A DNA stretch of 35,570 nucleotides from an uncultured Bacilli bacterium. Lineage in GTDB: Bacteria > Bacillota_I > Bacilli_A > RF39 > UBA660. The translations under genes were made by a program, and so were the position numbers. The stretch is taken from assembly GCA_947625505.1 (NCBI GenBank), contig CANQON010000003.1:1-35570 (forward strand). The letters are read 5' to 3'. The notes beneath the pieces are model-generated. The model was not told the origin of the DNA. It ran no database searches and saw only the letters and a list, made by a program, of their open reading frames with translations. Positions 516 through 25,016 of this stretch are shown here, piece by piece. Within the stretch, counting starts at the first letter, position 1, and each line of letters starts with the position of its first letter.

Positions 516-3500
516 GTGAAGAAAAAAATACCATACTTAATATTATCGGTTATAGTATTTATCATTGGATGTATTAGTATTTATCCTAGTCAAACTAGTC
601 GTATTGTAAAATATATAAATGATAATATCAAATCTAATGGTTTTTTTAACTCTATTCTTACAAGAGAAACTAATATTGATAGTGATGATCTAACTAATTT
701 TTTAGATAGTGTTACTATTACAGATTCTGATGGGAACCCCATAGATGATAATATCTTACATGTTGGTAGTAAATATAATATAACTATATCATTTAAGGAA
801 CAAGGCGCAACAGGGGCTCAATTTAAACCATCAGGAGAAGAAAATAGTATGACTTATACGTTTCCTCCTAACTTTAATATACCTCCAATATCTAATCAAA
901 AACTAGAAGTTGAAGTAGCAGGACAACCAGTAGAAATTGGTAGTTATTCAATAGATGAAAATGGTAAATTAGTTATTAATTTTACTGAACAAGGCATGCA
1001 AGCTATAGCAGCATCAACTGATTTAGACCTTGTATTTAGTTTACAAGCTATATTAAAAGCTATTACAGGTGATCCAGATGAATCTACTAATTTTGGATCT
1101 TATGATGATAGTTTTACTTTCCAAGTAGATAATAATCCAGACTTATCACTTGAAAAAATAGGCTCATATAATGGAAGCGAACAACTTTTAAGCTACCAAG
1201 TAACAGCTAAAGTATCTAGTGGTACACTTAATGACGTTGAAATAGAAGACAATATTTTACCTTATAATAATGATGCTATTAAAATAAAAATAGTAACAGA
1301 ATCTATCAAGGTTAAATTAAAACGTGGAGGAACAGAGATAGATTTAACGACTGATGATTATGAGGTAGAATGTCTTGATGACATGCATTTTAAGATTAAG
1401 ATTAAAGGAACAAGTCAATATCAACAGTTATTAGCGGGTGATGAGTTAATCGTTAATTATGATTACAAAACGGAGTTTGTTGAAACTCAAACGGGTACAT
1501 ATTATGCGACAGTAATCAATGCAGCTGAATTTGGTGGAAATGTTATAGGACCAGATGGAAGTAAAACACCTTCATCAACTGGAGGTTCTACAACTCTTCA
1601 TGTTTCGCCTGTTGCTCCTAATAATGTTTCAATTATTAAAAAGCAAGAGTGGAATCCTGACACAAAAACACTTACATATAGAATATATGCTGAAGTAAAG
1701 GCAGGAACTTATTTTAATTTTTGGCTTAATGACTATTTAAATGTATATTATGAACTAGCAAGTCACTCATTAACTAGTCAATTAATTAAGGGTGATGTTA
1801 AAGTATATGCCACTGATATAGAAGATTATGAAATGTTTTCCATAACAAATTCTGATTCTATAATCGCAAAATACGAAAATAAATTAGAACAACTTAAAGT
1901 TATTAAAAATGAAGAGTTAAAAAATGGCGCTTCATATGATCCAGGAGATATGGATTCGGTAATTTTTAATGAAGGACCAACAGCTACATCTTATTTTTTT
2001 GGCTATGATAAAGATAAGGGGACTTCAAGTTATTCTTATGGTAAAAATCGATTCCTTAAATTTGAATATCAAATTGATTTATCTAATGGTGTTACCTTTT
2101 ATGACAGTGACCAAAAATTAACTTTTGAGGAGTTATTGAAAGCTGGAATTACCAATAGTGCAGATCTTAGATATAATAACTATGAAAGCTTTAACGAAGT
2201 TTATTTTGCCAAAGGTAATGATTTGGAAAAAAAGGCCGTAGTAAATAATCGAAAAAATACAATTGATTACACTGTATCTATTGATGTTGATGATACTGAA
2301 AACTATTATTTTATTAAAAGGATTTGTGAAGAATTTTATACTCCTTGGGGTGAGTCTGTTACTTTTGTCGATGATTATGATGATGGCTTTGAATATGTTG
2401 AAGGAACATTAAAGCTTATCTATAAGTTTAAAGATGGTACTTATTTAACATTTAATTATGTTGGCAATGATGAGACAGGTGAACGTTGGCGTCCAGAACA
2501 ATATAATGATCCGGATCTTAAAAAAGGCCGTATTCAAGCTAATTATCGTTCTTTTCTCCTTTCTCATGAAGAAAGTACTCATGATATAGTAGCTTCTGAC
2601 TATCCAGAAAATTATTTATATGGTCGTATGGAGATTGATAGTATTGATTTTGTCTATACTCTTCAAGCAAAAGATAGTTGGTTAAAAGAACATGCTAACG
2701 ATGATAATGATACTATTGTTAAAAATAAAGCTATGATAACAACTTCAGAAGACCCAACAGGTAAAAATTTTCATGCTGAAAACGAAGTACCATTCTTCCC
2801 AGCACGTGTTTTAAAAGATGCTGAACAAGAAGGCAATAGTAATTTAATTCATTTTACTTTAAAGGTTAATCCTAATGCGATTGACTTAGATAAAACTAGC
2901 CCTAATTTAACTATTACAGATACTAGTTCTGGTATTTCTATTCAGTATGATACGATTTCTATTACAGATGAAAATGGTGAAGTAGTTGAGTACCAACTTA
3001 TTAATGATGAAGATGATCATGTATTTAAACTTATTGTACCTGATAATAAAGCACTTACTATTAAGTATGACGCTATTACTTATTTAAAAGGTGAAGCAGT
3101 AAGTGTAAAAAATTCTATTATAATAGCTAATGCTACTCGATCTGAAGATACTTATAGTAAGGTATTAGAAGTTAGTTCAACATCTGGTGGTGGAGGCGGT
3201 AGTGCCTTTGAACTTACAATTAAAAAAGTAGATAGTAAAGATAAAAATAAAGTATTAAAGAATGCTAAATTTAAATTTTATCTTGTTGTACCTGAAGGTT
3301 CAGCTCTTGAAGCTACTGATAAAATAGGAGACTATAACGTTTATAGTGAAGATAACTGGAATATTGAAACAAATAGTGATGGTAAATTTAAAATAGAAAA
3401 AGCTATGAATTGGCGTTTAGAAGGAGGTAACTATTATATCCTTGTTGAACAACAAGCTCCTAAAGGTTATGTCTTAGATAAAACTCCTATATTATTCTAT

Positions 3501-15472: not shown

Positions 15473-16732
15473 ATGAATTTAAATTATGCAATATTTAGAA
15501 GTGAACCCATTATGACCATCCATGATTTAGCACAAATTGGATCACATAACAAAAGAGAAAAAAAGGCTTATAATTCTAATCCAGATATAGATATAGAAAA
15601 AAGCAAAGATAATATAGAACTAGTCCCCTTAACAGACAAATATGTTAAGGGGTTTTATTATATTGTAAAAGATTATAAAAAGGAACATGAAGATAGAATG
15701 AAAACAGAACGAGCAGATAGAAGAAAGACTTTTAAACAAATGTTGGATAAATCTAATAATGTAGTTGCTGATGAATTATTATTTACAGCGACTAACCAAT
15801 TTTTTGAAAATATGACAAGAGATGATATAAAAAAATGGGCTGATACCTGTATGGAGTTTGTTTATGAAGATTTAGGATATACTAAAGAACAAGTTTTACA
15901 TGCTACAGTTCATTTAGACGAAAAAACACCACATATTCATTGTGTTGTTGTTCCTCTTGTTAAAAAGTTTGATAAAAGAACTAATATAGAGAGATATACT
16001 ATTTCTAAAAAGCAATATATAAGAGATAAAGCACATTTATCAGAATTGCAAGATAAATACCATAAAAGATTAATTGGTAAAGGTTATGATCTAGAGCGAG
16101 GAATTAAAGGTAGTGATAGAAAACACATCAAAATTAAAGATTACAAGAAAATAAATAGAAAACTAGAAGAAAATCTAAGTATTAGAAACGATAAACTTGA
16201 TAAAGCGATAAATGAGTTTGATGAAAAGATGAACAAAACTAAAAATATTCCTTTTAATAAAAATCAAGTAATTGTTAATGCAGATACTTTTAATAGTATG
16301 CAACAAATAGTTAATGAATCAAAAAAAGTTGTAGAATTACAACCTAAAATTAAAGAAGTTTTTAATGAAATAGATAGTTATGCTATTGGATACAAAACGC
16401 TTGAAAAAGAAAATCAAAGATATAAAAAGGAAGTTGATAACTTAAAAGAAGAAAATAGAAATTTAATGTATCAAATAACAAGAATATTAAATTCAATTAA
16501 ACAATTTTTTAGAAAACTTTTGAAAATAGGTACGGAATCTGTTAAAGATTACGCTGAAAATGAGATTAAGGAATATTATGATAACTATGATTTTGAAATG
16601 GAAGATGTCAGAGATATTGCTACAGGTACAACAAGAGAAGCTAGTTTATTTGAATATGCTAATGTACCTGATTATTATAAAACTATAGAGTGTCATAAGG
16701 AAGATAAAAATAAATTTGATATAAGTGTTTAG
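15473..16732 (+). CDS. mobV: MobV-family relaxase (Mob/Pre)
   Basis: 419 residues. The N-terminal half matches plasmid recombination enzyme/MobV relaxases: S-H-N-K-R-E-K-K-A-Y...N-P-D-I-D-I-E (about 24-43), and the metal-binding motif HLDEKTPHIH at 147-156 (His147, His154, His156), followed by VVVPL. MobV proteins nick one strand at oriT and lead the DNA into a recipient through a conjugation pore made by another element. Residues about 220-345 are Lys/Glu-rich coiled coil. Start ATG 15473 follows AAAGGAGG. Its presence, without secretion genes, makes the host element mobilizable rather than self-transferring. Confidence 0.92.
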   Translation: MNLNYAIFRSEPIMTIHDLAQIGSHNKREKKAYNSNPDIDIEKSKDNIELVPLTDKYVKGFYYIVKDYKKEHEDRMKTERADRRKTFKQMLDKSNNVVADELLFTATNQFFENMTRDDIKKWADTCMEFVYEDLGYTKEQVLHATVHLDEKTPHIHCVVVPLVKKFDKRTNIERYTISKKQYIRDKAHLSELQDKYHKRLIGKGYDLERGIKGSDRKHIKIKDYKKINRKLEENLSIRNDKLDKAINEFDEKMNKTKNIPFNKNQVIVNADTFNSMQQIVNESKKVVELQPKIKEVFNEIDSYAIGYKTLEKENQRYKKEVDNLKEENRNLMYQITRILNSIKQFFRKLLKIGTESVKDYAENEIKEYYDNYDFEMEDVRDIATGTTREASLFEYANVPDYYKTIECHKEDKNKFDISV

Positions 16733-16806
16733 AAAAATATGTAATTACGGATTTGGAAAAACAAGAAAAAAGAAATATGAATAAAATCTTCATATTCCTT
16801 TAAATT

Positions 16807-16836
16807 TTATCGTATAACTCATAATTATGCGACATT
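16807..16836. repeat. Inverted repeat IR-L of the recombinase switch
   Basis: 30 bp with core TCGTATAACTCATAATTAT. It is the reverse complement of 17870-17899 with 28 of 30 positions matching (differences at 16829 and 16833). It stands 105 nt before the tyrosine recombinase gene. Confidence 0.92.
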
Positions 16837-16849
16837 TATCAACACTTAA

Positions 16850-16858
16850 AATATATCA
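16850..16858 (-). promoter_or_regulatory. Leftward promoter candidate inside the invertible segment
   Basis: On the minus strand TGATATATT is an extended -10 (5/6 to TATAAT), with a weak TTCCAA -35 at 17-bp spacing. It now points out through IR-L toward the end of the relaxase gene. After inversion it would point out through IR-R into the 17923 gene. Confidence 0.4.
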
Positions 16859-16862
16859 TAAT

Positions 16863-16891
16863 TTGGCAAATATTGGAATATTTTTCATAAA
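16863..16891 (+). promoter_or_regulatory. Promoter of the tyrosine recombinase
   Basis: TTGGCA at 16863-16868 (5/6), 17-bp spacer, CATAAA at 16886-16891 (4/6). It lies inside the invertible segment, so the recombinase keeps its promoter in both orientations. Confidence 0.45.
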
Positions 16892-16941
16892 TTATTCCCA
16901 ATAAATTTATTTTATGAAAATATAAGAAATGGAGGTGTTTT

Positions 16942-17871
16942 ATGAAAGTGAGAAAGTCGATAACTTATAATGATATTTTAAAACTTTGGTTAAATAGTAA
17001 AACGGATATAAAAATACAATCCAAATTAAATTATGAAAGTCTGATTCTAAGGTATATAAAAGATTCTATTGGGATCTTATCCATTAATAAGATTAAAAAA
17101 GATGATATACAAAAATTTATGGATTCTTTTCAAAATAAAATAACAATATCAACGCAGAGAAAACTTATTTATATTATTAAAGCTAGTTTATCTTATGCCT
17201 ATCATAATCATTATTGTAATTATTTAGATTTGTCCGATATTAAACTTAAAGTAACAAAGAGACCAATTTTAGTATTATCTAGAGAAGAACAAAATACTTT
17301 AGAAATAACATTAAAAGAAAAAGTAAATATCCGTAAAATCTGTATCTTATTATGCTTATATACAGGCCTTAGAGTTGGTGAAGTTTGTGGTTTGAAATGG
17401 GAAGATATCAATTTTAGTAGTAAATTCCTTGTCATTAGAAGGACTATTATTAGAGTTAAGAATTCAGATTGCAGTAGTTCTAGAAAGACAATTTTAATGG
17501 AAAGTACTCCTAAGAGCGAAACTTCTAAACGAATGGTTCCTATACCTAACTTTATTATCGAATTACTAGGAAGATATAAACAAAAAGATAACTATTTTCT
17601 TCTATCTAGTAGTGAGAAATTGTATGATCCTAGATATTTAGAATCGTTTTATTCAAGGATATTAAAAAAATGTCATATTAAAAATAATAAGTTTCACACC
17701 TTGAGACATACTTTTGCGACTCGCTCAATTGAATCTAAAATGGATGTGAAGACATTAAGCGAACTTTTAGGACATTCTTCTATTGAAATAACATTAAAAC
17801 TATATGTACATCCTACTTATGAGATGAAAAGAACTTCTATTGAAAATTTAGTTGAATTTATGGCTATTTAA
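16942..17871 (+). CDS. Tyrosine recombinase (DNA invertase candidate)
   Basis: 309 residues. Start ATG 16942 follows GGAGG (16931-16935). A SAM-like core-binding domain covers about 6-95, the catalytic domain 105-300. Active-site residues visible: Arg144 in TGLRVGE, His252 and Arg255 in HTLRHTF, His278 in LLGHSS and the nucleophile Tyr288 in LKLYVH. All are present, so it should be active. The stop codon TAA (17869-17871) already lies in the right inverted repeat, so gene and repeat are fused into one unit. The large serine recombinase at the element end supplies integration; this gene would be redundant for that and more likely inverts its own segment. Confidence 0.9.
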   Translation: MKVRKSITYNDILKLWLNSKTDIKIQSKLNYESLILRYIKDSIGILSINKIKKDDIQKFMDSFQNKITISTQRKLIYIIKASLSYAYHNHYCNYLDLSDIKLKVTKRPILVLSREEQNTLEITLKEKVNIRKICILLCLYTGLRVGEVCGLKWEDINFSSKFLVIRRTIIRVKNSDCSSSRKTILMESTPKSETSKRMVPIPNFIIELLGRYKQKDNYFLLSSSEKLYDPRYLESFYSRILKKCHIKNNKFHTLRHTFATRSIESKMDVKTLSELLGHSSIEITLKLYVHPTYEMKRTSIENLVEFMAI

Positions 17872-17899
17872 TATCGAATAATTATGAGTTATACGATAA
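17870..17899. repeat. Inverted repeat IR-R of the recombinase switch
   Basis: Reverse complement of IR-L (28/30). It overlaps the recombinase stop codon at its left end and ends 23 nt before the next gene's start. Confidence 0.92.
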
Positions 17900-17922
17900 T
17901 TTTATAGGAAGGAGTAAGGATT

Positions 17923-18192
17923 ATGGCTAAAGAAAAGTACGAAAAAATGAAAATTTTTCTGGATAACAAAGATGTGATAAATAAACCAATAACTATTAAT
18001 GAAATAGAAAAATATTTAAAAATGAACTTACCTAAAAGTTACTACACTAAAAGTTATTGGAATAATAGTAATTATGGTATAGGGAAAATTTTATACGAAA
18101 AAGGATTAAGGGTAAAGTCAATTACAACAGTTATAGAGTTTGAAAAAATAAAAACTATAAATAATAAACAAAAAGTAATCGTAGAGAGATGA
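17923..18192 (+). CDS. DUF7662-like small protein next to the switch
   Basis: 89 residues, start ATG 17923 behind GAAGGAG. The text follows the DUF7662 pattern: Y-E-K-M-K-I-F-L, then I-T-I-N-E-I-E-K-Y-L...L-P-K-S-Y-Y-T-K-S-Y-W-N-N, then G-I-G-K-I-L-Y-E-K-G-L-R-V-K-S-I (compare L-P-x-S-A...W-W-x-N...aW..aGw.V..v). Function of the family is unknown; a nucleic-acid-binding role has been supposed. There is no promoter between IR-R and its ribosome site, so transcription must come out of the invertible segment. That makes it the natural target of the switch. It might also regulate the recombinase. Confidence 0.65.
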   Translation: MAKEKYEKMKIFLDNKDVINKPITINEIEKYLKMNLPKSYYTKSYWNNSNYGIGKILYEKGLRVKSITTVIEFEKIKTINNKQKVIVER

Positions 18193-18282
18193 GATTTATG
18201 AAAAACCTTTGATTTATATAGCTACAGAATATTTATAGATAATTTTAGAAAATAAAGTAAAAAAGTAAGGAGTTAACGAAAG

Positions 18283-19251
18283 ATGAAAAAGAAAATATTA
18301 AATATATTATTAATTGGTGTTTTGATTTTAGGTTTAACTGGTTGTGGCAAAAGTAAAAATTCTGATGTTGAAAATGAAACAAATAATATCGAAAATATGA
18401 TAAAAACTGCTGAAATTCTTAATTGGAATGAAGTATACCATATTGTGCAAGAAAATGGTGCAAAGGCCGAAGATTATGAAAATAAATTATATGTTTATAC
18501 TGGTGAAGTTTATTCAATTGAAGGAAATTATTGCCAATTAGAATTTACAAATCCAATATATGCATATCTTGATAAAGAAACATTAAAATCTTTAAATAAA
18601 GGTGATGTAATTACAGTAATTGGAACAATGGTAAATGTTAGAACTTTTCCTGAATTAAAGAATGCTATAAAATTGGATAATGAAACGATTAAAGAAAAAT
18701 TCATAATGGCTAAGACAAGCGAAGAGAGTTCGGGATTTGGACCAAATAGTACTTATAGTAATTACGAAATAGATGAAAATACTGGACTTGTTATTTCATA
18801 TAAACAATCTGGAGATAGTAATGGTACTCATAAGTTAACTTACGATGAAAACGGTAATTTAATTGAAGATTTATTTGAATATGCAATTGATTCTTATGGA
18901 AGTGATAAAAATATATATACTTATGATTTTAATAATAATGTTCTAACAGAAGATGTATATTCAATAGATGAAGGCAAGGAAACTAGAGAACAACATTGGG
19001 ACTATACTTACGAATTTGATAATAATAATAGAGTTACAAAAAAAACTGGTATAAATACTTTAGGCGATAATTATAAAATGGTTTATGAATATAACTATGA
19101 TGAGAATGGAAATGTAAGTGAAGAAACTCAAACCAGTTCTAGAAGTACTTACAAAATTAAATATACTTATGATGAATTTGGTAATGTTATTAAAAGAACT
19201 ACAGATGGAAGTACAACATCATATACTTATAGTATAATTGCAAAAAAATAG
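18283..19251 (+). CDS. Lipoprotein with OB-fold and YD-repeat-like C-terminus
   Basis: 322 residues with a lipoprotein signal (lipobox LTGC, Cys21), so it is anchored to the outer face of the membrane. Residues about 65-118 look like a tRNA_anti-like OB-fold (K-L-Y-V-Y-T-G-E-V...L-N-K-G-D-V-I-T-V-I-G-T). The C-terminal 150 residues contain Y-D-E-N-G-N-L and Y-D-E-F-G-N-V units typical of YD/RHS-type beta repeats. No enzymatic motif is seen. It is first in a block of four small surface genes running in the same direction and has AAGGAG before its start. Role unknown. Confidence 0.75.
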   Translation: MKKKILNILLIGVLILGLTGCGKSKNSDVENETNNIENMIKTAEILNWNEVYHIVQENGAKAEDYENKLYVYTGEVYSIEGNYCQLEFTNPIYAYLDKETLKSLNKGDVITVIGTMVNVRTFPELKNAIKLDNETIKEKFIMAKTSEESSGFGPNSTYSNYEIDENTGLVISYKQSGDSNGTHKLTYDENGNLIEDLFEYAIDSYGSDKNIYTYDFNNNVLTEDVYSIDEGKETREQHWDYTYEFDNNNRVTKKTGINTLGDNYKMVYEYNYDENGNVSEETQTSSRSTYKIKYTYDEFGNVIKRTTDGSTTSYTYSIIAKK

Positions 19252-19266
19252 AATGGAGAATTATAA

Positions 19267-19632
19267 ATGAATATTTTAGCATTTTTAAAAGATAAATTTT
19301 TAATTATCGTTGGTGTTGCTTGTATAGCATTAGGCATATATGCATGCGTAGTTGGAAATATATTAATGGATTCAGGACATAAAGCTACACATGAAAACTC
19401 TTCAGTTTATTATGATTTGACTTATAAAGCTATTCAAGATGGAACAATTAAAACGGCAAATAATGTATATGAATTAAACGTTCTTGTTGGGGATGTAAGT
19501 TGCTGTATTATGACTTTTATTGGAATAACTTTCATTGTAGTTGGAGTATTAGTATGCTTTTATTACATTTCTAATAATGGCATTAAACTGAATCATATCA
19601 ATCCAACCATATCCACTAAAATTAATAAATAG
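19267..19632 (+). CDS. Small two-helix membrane protein
   Basis: 121 residues, start ATG 19267, 15 nt after the preceding lipoprotein gene with GGAG before it. Two membrane helices (about 11-30 and 79-101) with a polar loop of about 45 residues between them. No signal peptide, lipobox or known domain. It probably belongs to the same operon as the lipoproteins around it. The 100 bases after it hold no gene. Confidence 0.6.
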   Translation: MNILAFLKDKFLIIVGVACIALGIYACVVGNILMDSGHKATHENSSVYYDLTYKAIQDGTIKTANNVYELNVLVGDVSCCIMTFIGITFIVVGVLVCFYYISNNGIKLNHINPTISTKINK

Positions 19633-19732
19633 GTGTGACGTGTATTGAAAAAAGCAAATGATTAATGTAGAAAAAATGGAAAACTTAGAACAAACATGAA
19701 AAGAAACATATAGAATTTAAGGAGTGTAAATT

Positions 19733-20152
19733 ATGAAAAAGAAAATATTAATAATTATATTATGTGGAATTTGTCTATTTGGAATAGTAGGATGCAAATC
19801 AAAAGTCAAATTAGAAGGAAGATATGAATGGCGACCATATAAAAATTTGAATGATGCTTATGCGTATTATGAATTTAGCAATGATGGTAAGTGTATATTT
19901 ACAATGCAACTTGGAAATCAATATCAAGTATTACCAATAAATTATAATTATACCATCAGTAAAATAGACAAAAATAATTATGAAATAACGCTAGTAACTA
20001 CTGAAAAAGATGAGACAGTAACTTTAAAATATAATGCTAATGACGATATTCTCGTAGACGAATATTTTAAAAATATTGAAACCTCTTTAGAAGAAACATC
20101 TAGACCAAGTGACAACGATGAATATGGTCAATTTGTAAAAATAAAGAAATAA
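19733..20152 (+). CDS. Small lipoprotein, beta-rich
   Basis: 139 residues, lipobox IVGC (Cys21), start behind AAGGAG. The mature part begins L-E-G-R-Y-E-W...Y-Y-E-F-S-N-D-G-K-C-I-F-T, alternating strand patterns like lipocalin-type or DUF5640-like small lipoproteins of Bacillota. This fold assignment is a guess from pattern. It shares the opening MKKKIL with the lipoproteins on both sides and lies 15 nt before the next one, so it is part of the same surface block. Confidence 0.65.
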   Translation: MKKKILIIILCGICLFGIVGCKSKVKLEGRYEWRPYKNLNDAYAYYEFSNDGKCIFTMQLGNQYQVLPINYNYTISKIDKNNYEITLVTTEKDETVTLKYNANDDILVDEYFKNIETSLEETSRPSDNDEYGQFVKIKK

Positions 20153-20167
20153 GATGAAGGTTTAGTT

Positions 20168-21169
20168 ATGAAAAAGAAAATACTAAAATTTCTGGTATTA
20201 TTTATTTCTATTTTAGTTGTAGGATGCTCAGGTGCAAAAGAACAAGAGAAAATAGAAGAAACACCAAAAGAGTCTTATGAATGGCAAGATATTAAAGACA
20301 ATGAAAATTATGATTGGACAGATTCATCTTCATCAAAAGTAACGGATATTTTTCTTTCAGCAGCACGATATGTTTCGAGAAATGTTTTTGAAGAAACTGA
20401 TGATACTAGTGAAGTATGGTGGGGTTCAAAAGTAAGCTCTATTTATAATGAAATGAAAAAAATAGAAAATGATAATCAGTTTGCAAAACAAGTGCTTAAT
20501 AAAATTGATGATTTGAAAATTGATGAGATGTCGACTCTAGAGGAAGATTTTTTAGATAGTTATATTAAATTAATTTTTTTCAATATAAATTATGAGTATG
20601 AAAATGAGTTAACTTTTGATAAAAATGCTTTTATAAGTATTAAAGATATTGGTAAGGCATCTGAAGTATATATAGAAAATTATGATGATGATTATAATGT
20701 ATTGAATGAAAAACACTATCGTCAGTTAATGATATATTATCCTAAATTGGATATGTGGGTATATTCTATGTCATCGAATATAGCAGATGATAAATATAGT
20801 GTTTATATAGAAAAAAAAGAAAATTTAGGCGTTTCAGAGTGCACTACTTGTAAAAAAATAAGCCCTGATATTATTAATGATATGACACAAAAAAAATTAA
20901 AATTCTTCAATTTTTTAATTGCTTATCGAGATGGAGTATATTATAAAGCGCTACAAAAATATATAGAGGAAGCCAAAAAGTACGAAGCTAGTCATAACCC
21001 ACCTATGATAGGTATGACTAAGGAACAGGTTCTTAGATCTTCTTGGGGAAGCCCTAATCACATTAACAAAGATACCTATTCATGGGGAACAAGAGAACAA
21101 TGGGTATACAATAAAAAAGGTTATGTTTATTTTGAAAATGGTATTGTAACAAGTATTAGCGAAAGATAA
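20168..21169 (+). CDS. Lipoprotein with SmpA/BamE-like C-terminal fold
   Basis: 333 residues, lipobox VVGC (Cys20). The body (30-270) is helical with an acidic start and a C-T-T-C pair. The last 52 residues (from Gly282) read G-M-T-K-E-Q-V-L...W-G-S-P...E-Q-W-V-Y...Y-V-Y-F-E-N-G-I-V-T-S-I, the small SmpA/BamE-type alpha-beta fold often found at the end of Gram-positive lipoproteins. It is the last gene before the palindrome cluster. Exported position and partner are not known; all three lipoproteins could be entry-exclusion or adhesion cargo, but nothing proves it. Confidence 0.7.
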   Translation: MKKKILKFLVLFISILVVGCSGAKEQEKIEETPKESYEWQDIKDNENYDWTDSSSSKVTDIFLSAARYVSRNVFEETDDTSEVWWGSKVSSIYNEMKKIENDNQFAKQVLNKIDDLKIDEMSTLEEDFLDSYIKLIFFNINYEYENELTFDKNAFISIKDIGKASEVYIENYDDDYNVLNEKHYRQLMIYYPKLDMWVYSMSSNIADDKYSVYIEKKENLGVSECTTCKKISPDIINDMTQKKLKFFNFLIAYRDGVYYKALQKYIEEAKKYEASHNPPMIGMTKEQVLRSSWGSPNHINKDTYSWGTREQWVYNKKGYVYFENGIVTSISER

Positions 21170-21190
21170 TTATATAACTAATGAATCTAA

Positions 21191-21263
21191 CTATTTTAGA
21201 CAAAATAGTAACCCACTACGCTATTGGCAAGCCAATAACAGTGGTCAAAGGGAAAATCCCTTT
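21191..21263. repeat. Cluster of palindromes, candidate oriT or structured RNA
   Basis: Three hairpins in 73 bases: CTATTTT/AAAATAG (21191-21197 with 21202-21208); CCACT/AGTGG (21213-21217, 21240-21244) enclosing TATTGGC/GCCAATA (21222-21228, 21231-21237); and AAAGGGA/TCCCTTT (21247-21253, 21257-21263). The region is richer in GC than its surroundings and has no open frame. Nested perfect inverted repeats are usual at transfer origins of mobilizable elements, and the element carries a relaxase. It is however 4.5 kb from the relaxase gene. The 21170-21493 gap holds this cluster and the two terminators below. Confidence 0.45.
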
Positions 21264-21278
21264 TGAAACCCTATTAAA

Positions 21279-21322
21279 GCAATAATATTACAAACTATCG
21301 TAAGTAAAGTTATTGCCTTTTT
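21279..21322 (+). terminator. Terminator-like hairpin after the lipoprotein block
   Basis: GCAATAA (21279-21285) pairs with TTATTGC (21310-21316) over a 24-nt loop, followed by CTTTTTATTT. Confidence 0.45.
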
Positions 21323-21346
21323 ATTTCAACAAGTTTAAATAAAAAG

Positions 21347-21399
21347 AAAAGATACGCACTATATTGGCTATTAAATTAAATCAATAATGCGTATCTTTT
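21347..21399. terminator. Bidirectional terminator between convergent transcription units
   Basis: Perfect 12-bp stem AAAAGATACGCA (21347-21358) and TGCGTATCTTTT (21388-21399); an inner TATTG/CAATA pair extends it. A and T runs on both sides suit termination from either strand, between the rightward lipoproteins and the leftward XRE gene. Confidence 0.75.
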
Positions 21400-21493
21400 A
21401 TATGAAAATAATCTTAATGCCTAATCTTGCGAAAAGACAAAAAGATTATTTTTTTTGACAAAATTATGGATGAATAAAATGCCTTTCGCCATT

Positions 21494-22042
21494 TTATCCT
21501 TTTGGAAATAATCCTTTATCAAATGATGGATATTTTGATTTATCGAATTTTTCTAAATTTGGTCTGATCATAGGAATCAATTCTTTTAATCTATCTAGTA
21601 TTTCATCATTTGAAATGTCTTTCTTTTCTGTCTTAGCTAATTCTAATTTATCAATTAAATCAGCAATACCACCTTTAATAGCAAAGTCTACTTTTCTTCT
21701 GTTTTCTATTTCTTCTAGAACATCAAAATAAAAGTTTTCATAACTTTCTATTTGCTTTTGATAATCAGTAGTAGATCTTCTATTTGAAAAATCTTGTCCC
21801 CAATTGATATCTATATCGTCATAGCCTGCAAGTTTCATTAGATCTACCATACTTAAGTTTAATGTTTCGGCAATTCCTTTTAAATATAGAACATTGGGTT
21901 TTAATCTTTTTCCAGCTTCTATTCTTGATACTTCTGCACAGTCCATATTTGCTTGCCTTGCTAATTCTCTTTGTGAGATACCAACTTTTTCTCTTGCTTC
22001 ACTTATTACTTTACCTAATTCAGTAGTATTTTTCTTTAACAT
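21494..22042 (-). CDS. XRE-family repressor of the element
   Basis: 182 residues from the ATG at 22042-22040, with AAAGAGG just before it; a longer frame up to 22105 has no ribosome site. Residues about 4-62 form a helix-turn-helix of the HTH_3 type (LGKVISEAREKVGISQRELA, then EVSRIEAGKR). The C-terminal part is helical, with no protease (ImmA or LexA-like) motif. It is divergent from the winged-helix and recombinase genes, with three dyads between, so it likely represses that side and itself, as repressors of such elements do. Confidence 0.85.
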   Translation of the reverse strand: MLKKNTTELGKVISEAREKVGISQRELARQANMDCAEVSRIEAGKRLKPNVLYLKGIAETLNLSMVDLMKLAGYDDIDINWGQDFSNRRSTTDYQKQIESYENFYFDVLEEIENRRKVDFAIKGGIADLIDKLELAKTEKKDISNDEILDRLKELIPMIRPNLEKFDKSKYPSFDKGLFPKG

Positions 22043-23408: not shown

Positions 23409-25016
23409 ATGGAAAAGGTAGGTGTATATTGTAGGTTATCCGATGAGGATAGATATAAGAAGAATAAGAATGATGATAGTGAGTCAATCGCTAATCAAAA
23501 AAGTATGCTTTTAAAATATGCTTTGGATCAAGGTTGGGAAGTTGTAGATATTTATTCCGATGATGATTATTCAGGAGCAGGAGTTGAAAGACCTGATTTT
23601 AATAGATTGATTAATGATTGTGAAAATGGAAGAATAAATATTGTACTATGCAAAACACAGAGTAGATTTTCAAGAGATATGGAAGTAATAGAAAAGTATT
23701 TGCATAATAAGTTTGTTGAATGGGGCGTTAGATTTGTAAGCATTGTTGATAATGCTGATACGAATAATGAAGCCAATAAAAAATCAAGACAAATTAACGG
23801 ACTAGTTAATGAATGGTATTTAGAGGATTTATCTAACAATGTTAAAAAGTCATTAAAGAATAAAAGAGATGATGGCTTGTTTATGGGAAGTTTCGCACCC
23901 TATGGGTATATAAAAGATCCTAATGATAAACACAAACTTATTATTGATGAAAATGTTGCTCCTATTGTTAGAGAAATATTTGAAAAATATAAAAATGGAC
24001 TTGGTTATTATAGAATTAGTGGAAGTCTAAATGAAAGAAAGATATTATGTCCATCTCTTTATAAAAAGTCTATTGGAAGTAATTTTGTATGTTGCAATTT
24101 TGATTATGATACAACAGGGATGTGGACATCAGATACAATAGCAAGAATGTTAAGAAATGAAACTTATGTTGGTAAATTAGTACAAGGGAAAAGGACAAAC
24201 ATTAGTTATAAAAATCACAAATCAAAAAAAGTACCTAAATCAGAATGGAGTGTTACAGAAAATGCTCATGAACCAATTGTTGATAATGAAACATGGTATT
24301 TAGTGCAAAGAAGATTAAAAAGCCATCATAGACCAACAAAAGATAATGGGCATGTGCATGTACTAAGTAGTAAGGTTTATTGTTCTGAATGTGGAAGAAT
24401 CTATATGAGAAATCAAAGTAATATCAAATGTGCTGGTGGAGTAATTGAAAAAAGAGCATATCTACAATGCAAGGGAAACAAGAAGTATCATACTTGTGAT
24501 AATAATAGAGCTATAAGATATGATGTTTTAGAAAGTTATGTTCTGAATGCTATAAATGATTTATTAAAAAAATGTAATAAAAAATTACTAAAAGAAGAAT
24601 TTAACGAAACACTAGAAAAACAGAATAGACAGGATACTTTTATAACTAATTTGAATAAAGAAAAATCTAATCTTGAAAAGAAATTAAATGAAAGTAAATT
24701 ATATTTTAAAAATCTTTATACAGATAAACTTAAAGGAGTTATATCAGATTGTGACTTTGAAATGTTAAGAGATGAATATACAAAAGATGTTGAATCTTAT
24801 CAGACAAGATTAGAAGATATACAAAACCAACTAGAAGAAACACAAGAGAGAAAAGAAAGTTCAAAAAATATCGAAAGCATACTAAAAAAATATAAACATA
24901 TCAAAAAACTAACGAGGACAATTGTTGACGAGTTTATAGAAAAAATATATGTTGGTGCATTAGATAAAAATACTAATACGAGAGAAATTAAGATTGAGTG
25001 GAATCTTGATTTATAA
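23409..25016 (+). CDS. Large serine recombinase (integrase of the 13-kb element)
   Basis: 535 residues. Resolvase domain 1-150 with catalytic Ser11 in YCRLSDEDR and the arginine motif QSRFSRDM; recombinase domain about 165-300 (F-M-G-S-F-A-P-Y-G-Y...); zinc ribbon with CSEC at about 321-324 and a later pair C...C in LQCKGNKKYHTC; coiled-coil and C-terminal part 395-535. This is the full length and order of large serine integrases. It lies 34 nt before attP-derived sequence and 52 nt before the crossover CA at 25069, the usual place for the integrase that made the insertion. These enzymes integrate without partner; excision generally needs a directionality factor, which could be one of the small genes upstream. 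Confidence 0.95.
   Translation: MEKVGVYCRLSDEDRYKKNKNDDSESIANQKSMLLKYALDQGWEVVDIYSDDDYSGAGVERPDFNRLINDCENGRINIVLCKTQSRFSRDMEVIEKYLHNKFVEWGVRFVSIVDNADTNNEANKKSRQINGLVNEWYLEDLSNNVKKSLKNKRDDGLFMGSFAPYGYIKDPNDKHKLIIDENVAPIVREIFEKYKNGLGYYRISGSLNERKILCPSLYKKSIGSNFVCCNFDYDTTGMWTSDTIARMLRNETYVGKLVQGKRTNISYKNHKSKKVPKSEWSVTENAHEPIVDNETWYLVQRRLKSHHRPTKDNGHVHVLSSKVYCSECGRIYMRNQSNIKCAGGVIEKRAYLQCKGNKKYHTCDNNRAIRYDVLESYVLNAINDLLKKCNKKLLKEEFNETLEKQNRQDTFITNLNKEKSNLEKKLNESKLYFKNLYTDKLKGVISDCDFEMLRDEYTKDVESYQTRLEDIQNQLEETQERKESSKNIESILKKYKHIKKLTRTIVDEFIEKIYVGALDKNTNTREIKIEWNLDL

Follow-up and report, generated by a model that had tools for sequence, protein, structure and literature searches.

The window analysed here, a stretch of 35,570 nucleotides from an uncultured gut Bacilli bacterium, contains a tyrosine recombinase gene enclosed by two short inverted repeats, and the question it raises is whether this enzyme inverts the very segment that encodes it and thereby switches the genes next door. 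We consider this to be the case with a probability of roughly 0.84: comparison with related loci points to a self-contained invertible promoter cassette, in which the recombinase would flip its own unit of ~1.09 kb. The parts of this mechanism that comparison backs are the boxing of the gene, the occurrence of both orientations against fixed flanks, the conserved sites and the conserved outward promoter motif.

The two inverted repeats (16807-16836, plus strand; 17870-17899, minus strand) are 30 nt long, complementary at 28 of 30 positions (93%) and spaced 1033 nt apart; their 22-nt core has two copies in the window and none in 100 shuffles. Repeat comparison and the 309-aa open reading frame bear out the sequence-only reading in its claims that the repeats box a complete tyrosine recombinase and that the right one overlaps the recombinase stop codon, with which it shares 2 nt (TAA, 17869-17871). 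By its anatomy, each repeat reads as a putative recombination site, with palindromic arms on either side of a 7-nt centre: TATCGTATAA-CTCATAA-TTATGCGACA on the left and TATCGTATAA-CTCATAA-TTATTCGATA on the right. Among relatives the arms drift toward TCGTAGAAT..ATTCTACGA, and within repeat pairs up to 36% of the inner-arm positions differ. The crossover centre takes 17 forms among the units and is the same on the left and right in 25 of the 25 pairs compared, a count inflated by the picking of repeat pairs through an inverted-identity search; re-dealing the repeat partners (20,000 shuffles) gave a mean of 2.1 matching centres and a maximum of 9. Centres that are identical within pairs and varied between units are as strand-exchange homology would demand.

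The enzyme itself (16942-17871, plus strand) is a simple tyrosine recombinase. Pfam places a catalytic domain (PF00589, E=5.6e-26) and a core-binding domain (PF14659, E=9.3e-7) within its 309 residues and reveals no arm-binding domain. Its translation contains R144, K191/K197, H252, R255, H278 and Y288, a complete R-K-H-R-H-Y set, and the nearest solved structure is a transposon protein, the “Int protein” of 6emy (E 7e-17). A XerC/XerD chromosome-dimer resolvase was also considered and rejected, as the NCBIfam XerC/XerD/XerA models score the protein under their cut-offs (79.8 versus 335 bits and 71.9 versus 330 bits). Aligned upstream sequences reveal a leader at 16918-16938 (plus strand) with an A+T-rich box (consensus ATTAAAATATA; ATGAAAATATA in the window) and a ribosome-binding site, TGGAGGTG. 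This box, which lies inside the unit, is probably the recombinase’s own promoter, and the recombinase is the presumed catalyst of the inversion.

On the minus strand, an extended -10 element, TGATATATT (16850-16858), is present as the sequence-only reading had described it. It faces a hairpin now and would face the gene at 17923 after inversion; no clear -35 accompanies it. The importance attached to this element is supported by its family-wide conservation at a fixed distance from the repeat: 17 of 26 units have a TGnTATAAT-like outward extended -10 at a distance of 44-62 nt from the repeat’s outer end (mean 0.22 and maximum 3 in shuffled sequence), and the six larger units (L067-L069 and L097-L099) as well as L096 carry one too, at 52-168 nt. 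The hairpin, terminator-like and with a T-tract (AAAGGAATATGAA-loop-TTCATATTTCTTTTTTCTT; 16773-16801, minus strand), lies outside the left repeat in the fixed A flank, between the MobV gene and the boxed unit, and reaches -12.6 kcal/mol (z -2.5) in the outward direction. Hairpins with a score of at least 9 occur in the A flank of 18 of the 26 units and in the B flank of none (0/26). The fixed flanks differ, with a hairpin on one side (A) and a ribosome-binding site and payload on the other (B). In the window’s present orientation, the A-flank hairpin would stop the outward promoter.

The B flank begins with a fixed leader (17900-17922, plus strand) that contains the ribosome-binding site AGGAAGGAG, spans the 23 nt between the right repeat and the ATG at 17923, and adjoins the promoter side in a second copy of the unit, C36, described below. 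The first payload gene (17923-18192, plus strand) encodes 89 aa without a confident family, having neither a Pfam nor an NCBIfam match. Its earlier label, “DUF7662-like”, is unconfirmed, as no Pfam match reaches E<=0.01 and the best, SMI1_KNR4, is weak (0.089). In line with the earlier claim that the gene has no promoter of its own, no sigma-70-like site was listed at 17872-17923. The gene is rare, occurring in 2 of 291 family genomes. The probable rest of the payload, recognised by its shared strand and its lipoboxes, occupies 18283-21169 (plus strand) and comprises lipobox proteins of 322 aa (with an RHS_repeat, Pfam E 2.4e-8), 139 aa and 333 aa together with a 121-aa protein with two transmembrane segments. 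A search of 17900-21520 revealed no terminator-like site, so transcription may continue from 17923 into the lipoprotein block, and the two are plausibly co-transcribed. The interval from the recombinase stop to 17923 likewise has no such site; by way of the recombinase mRNA the payload may therefore be weakly or partly on now, and the present orientation may be leaky rather than fully off.

The fixed left neighbour of the unit is a MobV relaxase gene (15473-16732, plus strand; NCBIfam MobV, Pfam Mob_Pre), and further to the right lies a large serine recombinase (23409-25016, plus strand; PF00239, PF07508, PF13408), likely the integrase of a mobilizable element. Relaxase and serine recombinase frame the cargo in the window, and locus L059 has the same backbone with another payload. 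A large serine recombinase-like reading frame also lies downstream of another unit, on the payload side of L057 (2646-4235), which suggests that further mobilizable elements carry the switch.

Support for the inversion comes from homologous loci and from two copies in one genome, both of which reveal both orientations. The second copy in the window’s genome lies on contig C36, and its recombinase is 70% identical to that of the window. When the two are aligned, the unit matches in plus orientation (77%) while both flanks match in minus orientation (94.6% and 77.6%), with the breakpoints inside the repeats; the 94.6% match is that of the B-flank leader, inverted, over 56 nt including the repeat. 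C36 is likewise flipped relative to L011 and L055. We also composed the two junction sequences that inversion of the window unit should create and searched the genome for them; each is present without a break in C36, one at 81% over 128 nt and the other at 84% over 85 nt. Elsewhere, the sister units L058 and L060, 91.8% identical over 1089 nt, stand in opposite orientation, with both flanks matching inverted and the payload gene shared, and TasA-like operons occur with both unit orientations (L075 and L076 versus L077 and L079). The self-inversion proposed from the sequence alone is thus supported by units flipped against fixed flanks, in L058/L060 and in C36 versus the window, L011 and L055. 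The flagellar switch of Clostridioides difficile was first recognised by a like comparison between strains (PMC5386303).

In the proposed mechanism, the recombinase would be expressed from its own promoter within the unit and would recombine the two inverted sites, with their palindromic arms and 7-nt crossover centre, so that the unit flips together with the recombinase gene. Next to the left site, on its inner side, the extended -10 promoter would direct transcription out of the unit; as the window stands, this transcription would end at the hairpin terminator located at the MobV gene’s 3′ end. Inversion would turn the promoter toward 17923, which it would then express by way of the fixed ribosome-binding site, probably along with the lipoprotein block, and the recombinase transcript would in turn meet the hairpin. 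Because the recombinase promoter moves with its gene, both flip directions stay possible. The flipped state would be the high-expression state of the payload. The window unit has the arrangement by which invertons are recognised, namely inverted repeats around a promoter beside a gene.

Homologues of the recombinase occur in metagenome-derived genomes of gut Bacilli, including some from the rabbit gut. Of 386 genomes sampled from the window’s family, 50 gave matches at E<=1e-50, and in order- and class-wide samples (E<=1e-55) every match fell within that same family. About 30 relatives in this uncultured gut Bacilli family have the same boxed layout; for L070, L073, L095, L100 and L101, units at 51-57% identity, no close repeat pair was found. 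A census of orientation, assigned from the fixed flanks, covered the 26 single-payload loci with a close repeat pair: 18 units point the recombinase stop toward the payload and 8 are flipped, with the promoter side toward the payload, the assignment being clear for close relatives and based, for the remoter L063, L072, L077 and L081, on where the hairpin and genes lie. On the recombinase tree, the 8 flipped units represent 8 separate, unclustered changes, and orientation is therefore without phylogenetic memory. In addition, a hand count of 35 units gave 6 with a contig end no more than 150 bp from a repeat (C36, L061, L067, L071, L078 and L096), where 1.1 would be expected. Mixed orientations in a population would produce such an excess, as would repeats in general, and we take it as a hint.

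These data also bear on other ways of reading the locus. The logic may be reversed, with the window orientation ON through read-through of the payload together with the recombinase and the flipped orientation OFF or differently regulated, a reading consistent with the lack of terminator-like sites from the recombinase stop up to 17923. We regard this as unlikely, since a near-consensus outward extended -10 is kept at a fixed repeat distance in most units, the terminator blocks the outward promoter in the window orientation only, and at the two-operon capsule loci L069 and L096 a hairpin after the recombinase would prevent read-through. It is decidedly unlikely that the unit is a fossil, inverted in the past and now locked in the window copy: the window locus is seen in one orientation only, as a locked copy would be, but its reading frame and catalytic residues are intact, its centres are identical in both repeats and its outward promoter motif is preserved. 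The window unit would presumably still switch in present-day cells.

Two further explanations dispense with switching or assign the enzyme to the mobilizable element. Identical flanks are found with both orientations; the flanks with the hairpin and the ribosome-binding site, located beyond the repeats, do not change sides; the two crossover centres of a unit agree, but vary from one unit to the next; and no target-site duplication is visible in the flanks read. All of this makes a minimal mobile element, consisting of terminal inverted repeats and a recombinase gene inserted either way at various places, very improbable, even though the unit is found in many settings and is carried along by mobilizable elements. 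Least probable of the explanations weighed here is that the recombinase serves as integrase or resolvase of the mobilizable element with the repeats as its attachment sites, a role that the adjoining MobV relaxase and the transposon “Int protein” as nearest solved relative might suggest. In fact, the element has a separate large serine recombinase, and the boxed enzyme is short and without the arm-binding domain present in most mobile-element integrases (PMC8138268). Moreover, its sites are inverted and 1 kb apart, an arrangement for inversion and not excision, and most of its relatives reside at capsule, fibre or other loci.

Beyond the window, we favor, on balance, a lineage-specific plug-in cassette for phase variation, bringing its own tyrosine recombinase, co-evolving sites, an outward promoter and an insulating hairpin, that has become linked to numerous unrelated surface loci (mobilizable elements included) and that at some capsule loci lies between two divergent operons and selects one of two capsules. 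Units in L064 and L071 face a sugar transferase and glycosyltransferases (capsule operons), while those in L075-L079 face secreted proteins with an S26 signal peptidase (fibre operons), whose TasA likeness is our own judgement and comes without a Pfam match. An Ig-like repeat protein follows the unit in L063, and an HTH_17 gene and then lipoproteins follow that in L011; the unit in L018 is accompanied by a weak WXG100 match, with a Prok-JAB protein further along, and other payloads include zinc-ribbon membrane proteins. Directly downstream of the switch unit in L072 (8076-12203), we observed tandem genes for near-identical proteins of 308-332 aa that look secreted.

Units lie between two divergent capsule operons in L069 (G240:C18), in L099 (G405:C2) and probably in L096 (G394:C10), and in L069 paralogous sugar transferases begin both operons. 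In L069 and L096, a hairpin lies 3′ of the recombinase, so the outward promoter alone would act, choosing one operon. This arrangement suggests that such units are either/or capsule selectors. The repeats can also enclose additional genes: L067 (6799-10147) and L068 (6799-8875, both in recombinase-forward coordinates) have near-identical recombinases with the distal repeat 2-3 kb away, and contain an RloB-like gene with an AAA ATPase and a KilA-N protein, respectively.

The principle of such a switch is already known from Hin, and the window unit would be a portable tyrosine-recombinase variant of it. In the H segment of Salmonella, an outward promoter inside the inverted segment flips with the Hin enzyme gene, as the outward promoter and recombinase gene of the window unit would do. 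Hin, however, is a serine recombinase with a Fis enhancer, whereas the window-type enzyme is a tyrosine recombinase with ~30-bp sites, many loci and many payloads. The window unit would work like Hin but is not a Hin-type member. Switches of the fimS/FimB-FimE type use tyrosine recombinases to invert a promoter between short inverted repeats; their recombinase genes lie outside the inverted DNA, and that of the window lies inside. The UpaE element is a switch of this type (PMC6083910). Recombinases have been described as occasionally located within the invertible segment, with Hin given as the example (PMC5903667), and we found no description of an inverton that contains the gene for its own tyrosine recombinase in the open literature, which covers part of the field.

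The RecV switches of C. difficile (cwpV, flagellar) share with the window a tyrosine recombinase, short inverted repeats (21 bp in the flagellar switch), a link to surface structures and a gut Bacillota host (PMC5386303). RecV, however, is encoded at a separate locus and acts in trans on several 154-bp-type switches, whereas window-type units each carry their own enzyme, and the flagellar switch acts after transcription start, unlike the promoter switch proposed here. The Mpi system of Bacteroides, for which 13 switches are cited (PMC5386303), resembles the window-type units in placing inverted promoters ahead of capsule operons in gut bacteria and differs in that one master serine enzyme acts in trans and each promoter turns on or off independently. 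Gut invertons catalogued in surveys of the PhaseFinder type are invertible promoters in intergenic DNA with surface genes and recombinases nearby, as in the window. One such survey reports a median of 0 invertons in the sampled Bacillus-like Firmicutes and recombinases near invertons that are generally not regulated by them (PMC11892184).

If this reading is correct, a large family of small-genome uncultured gut Bacilli relies on a portable switch equipped with a recombinase of its own, and horizontal transfer of cargo can carry phase variation along without need of a host enzyme. Sites and enzymes differ between copies and would provide a natural set of orthogonal inversion pairs, and the units between two capsule operons, as direct either/or capsule selectors, would offer an idea for surface variation.

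Outside the family, the viral contigs searched held neither relatives nor sites, and plasmid and phage collections held relatives at 28-40% only. On an Enterococcus gilvus plasmid (L103, 2309-3421), a related integrase adjoins WxL-domain surface genes, and a flanking inverted repeat was not found there. Among seven of these relatives that were checked, three are unboxed and four are boxed by perfect inverted repeats of 24-36 nt; of the four, one is located on a Vescimonas fastidiosa plasmid and the others on three human-gut phage-labelled contigs. The layout may accordingly extend beyond the family. We note that the boxed recombinases in L105 (repeats at 2059-2087 and 3467-3495), L106, L107 and L108 are 30-35% identical.
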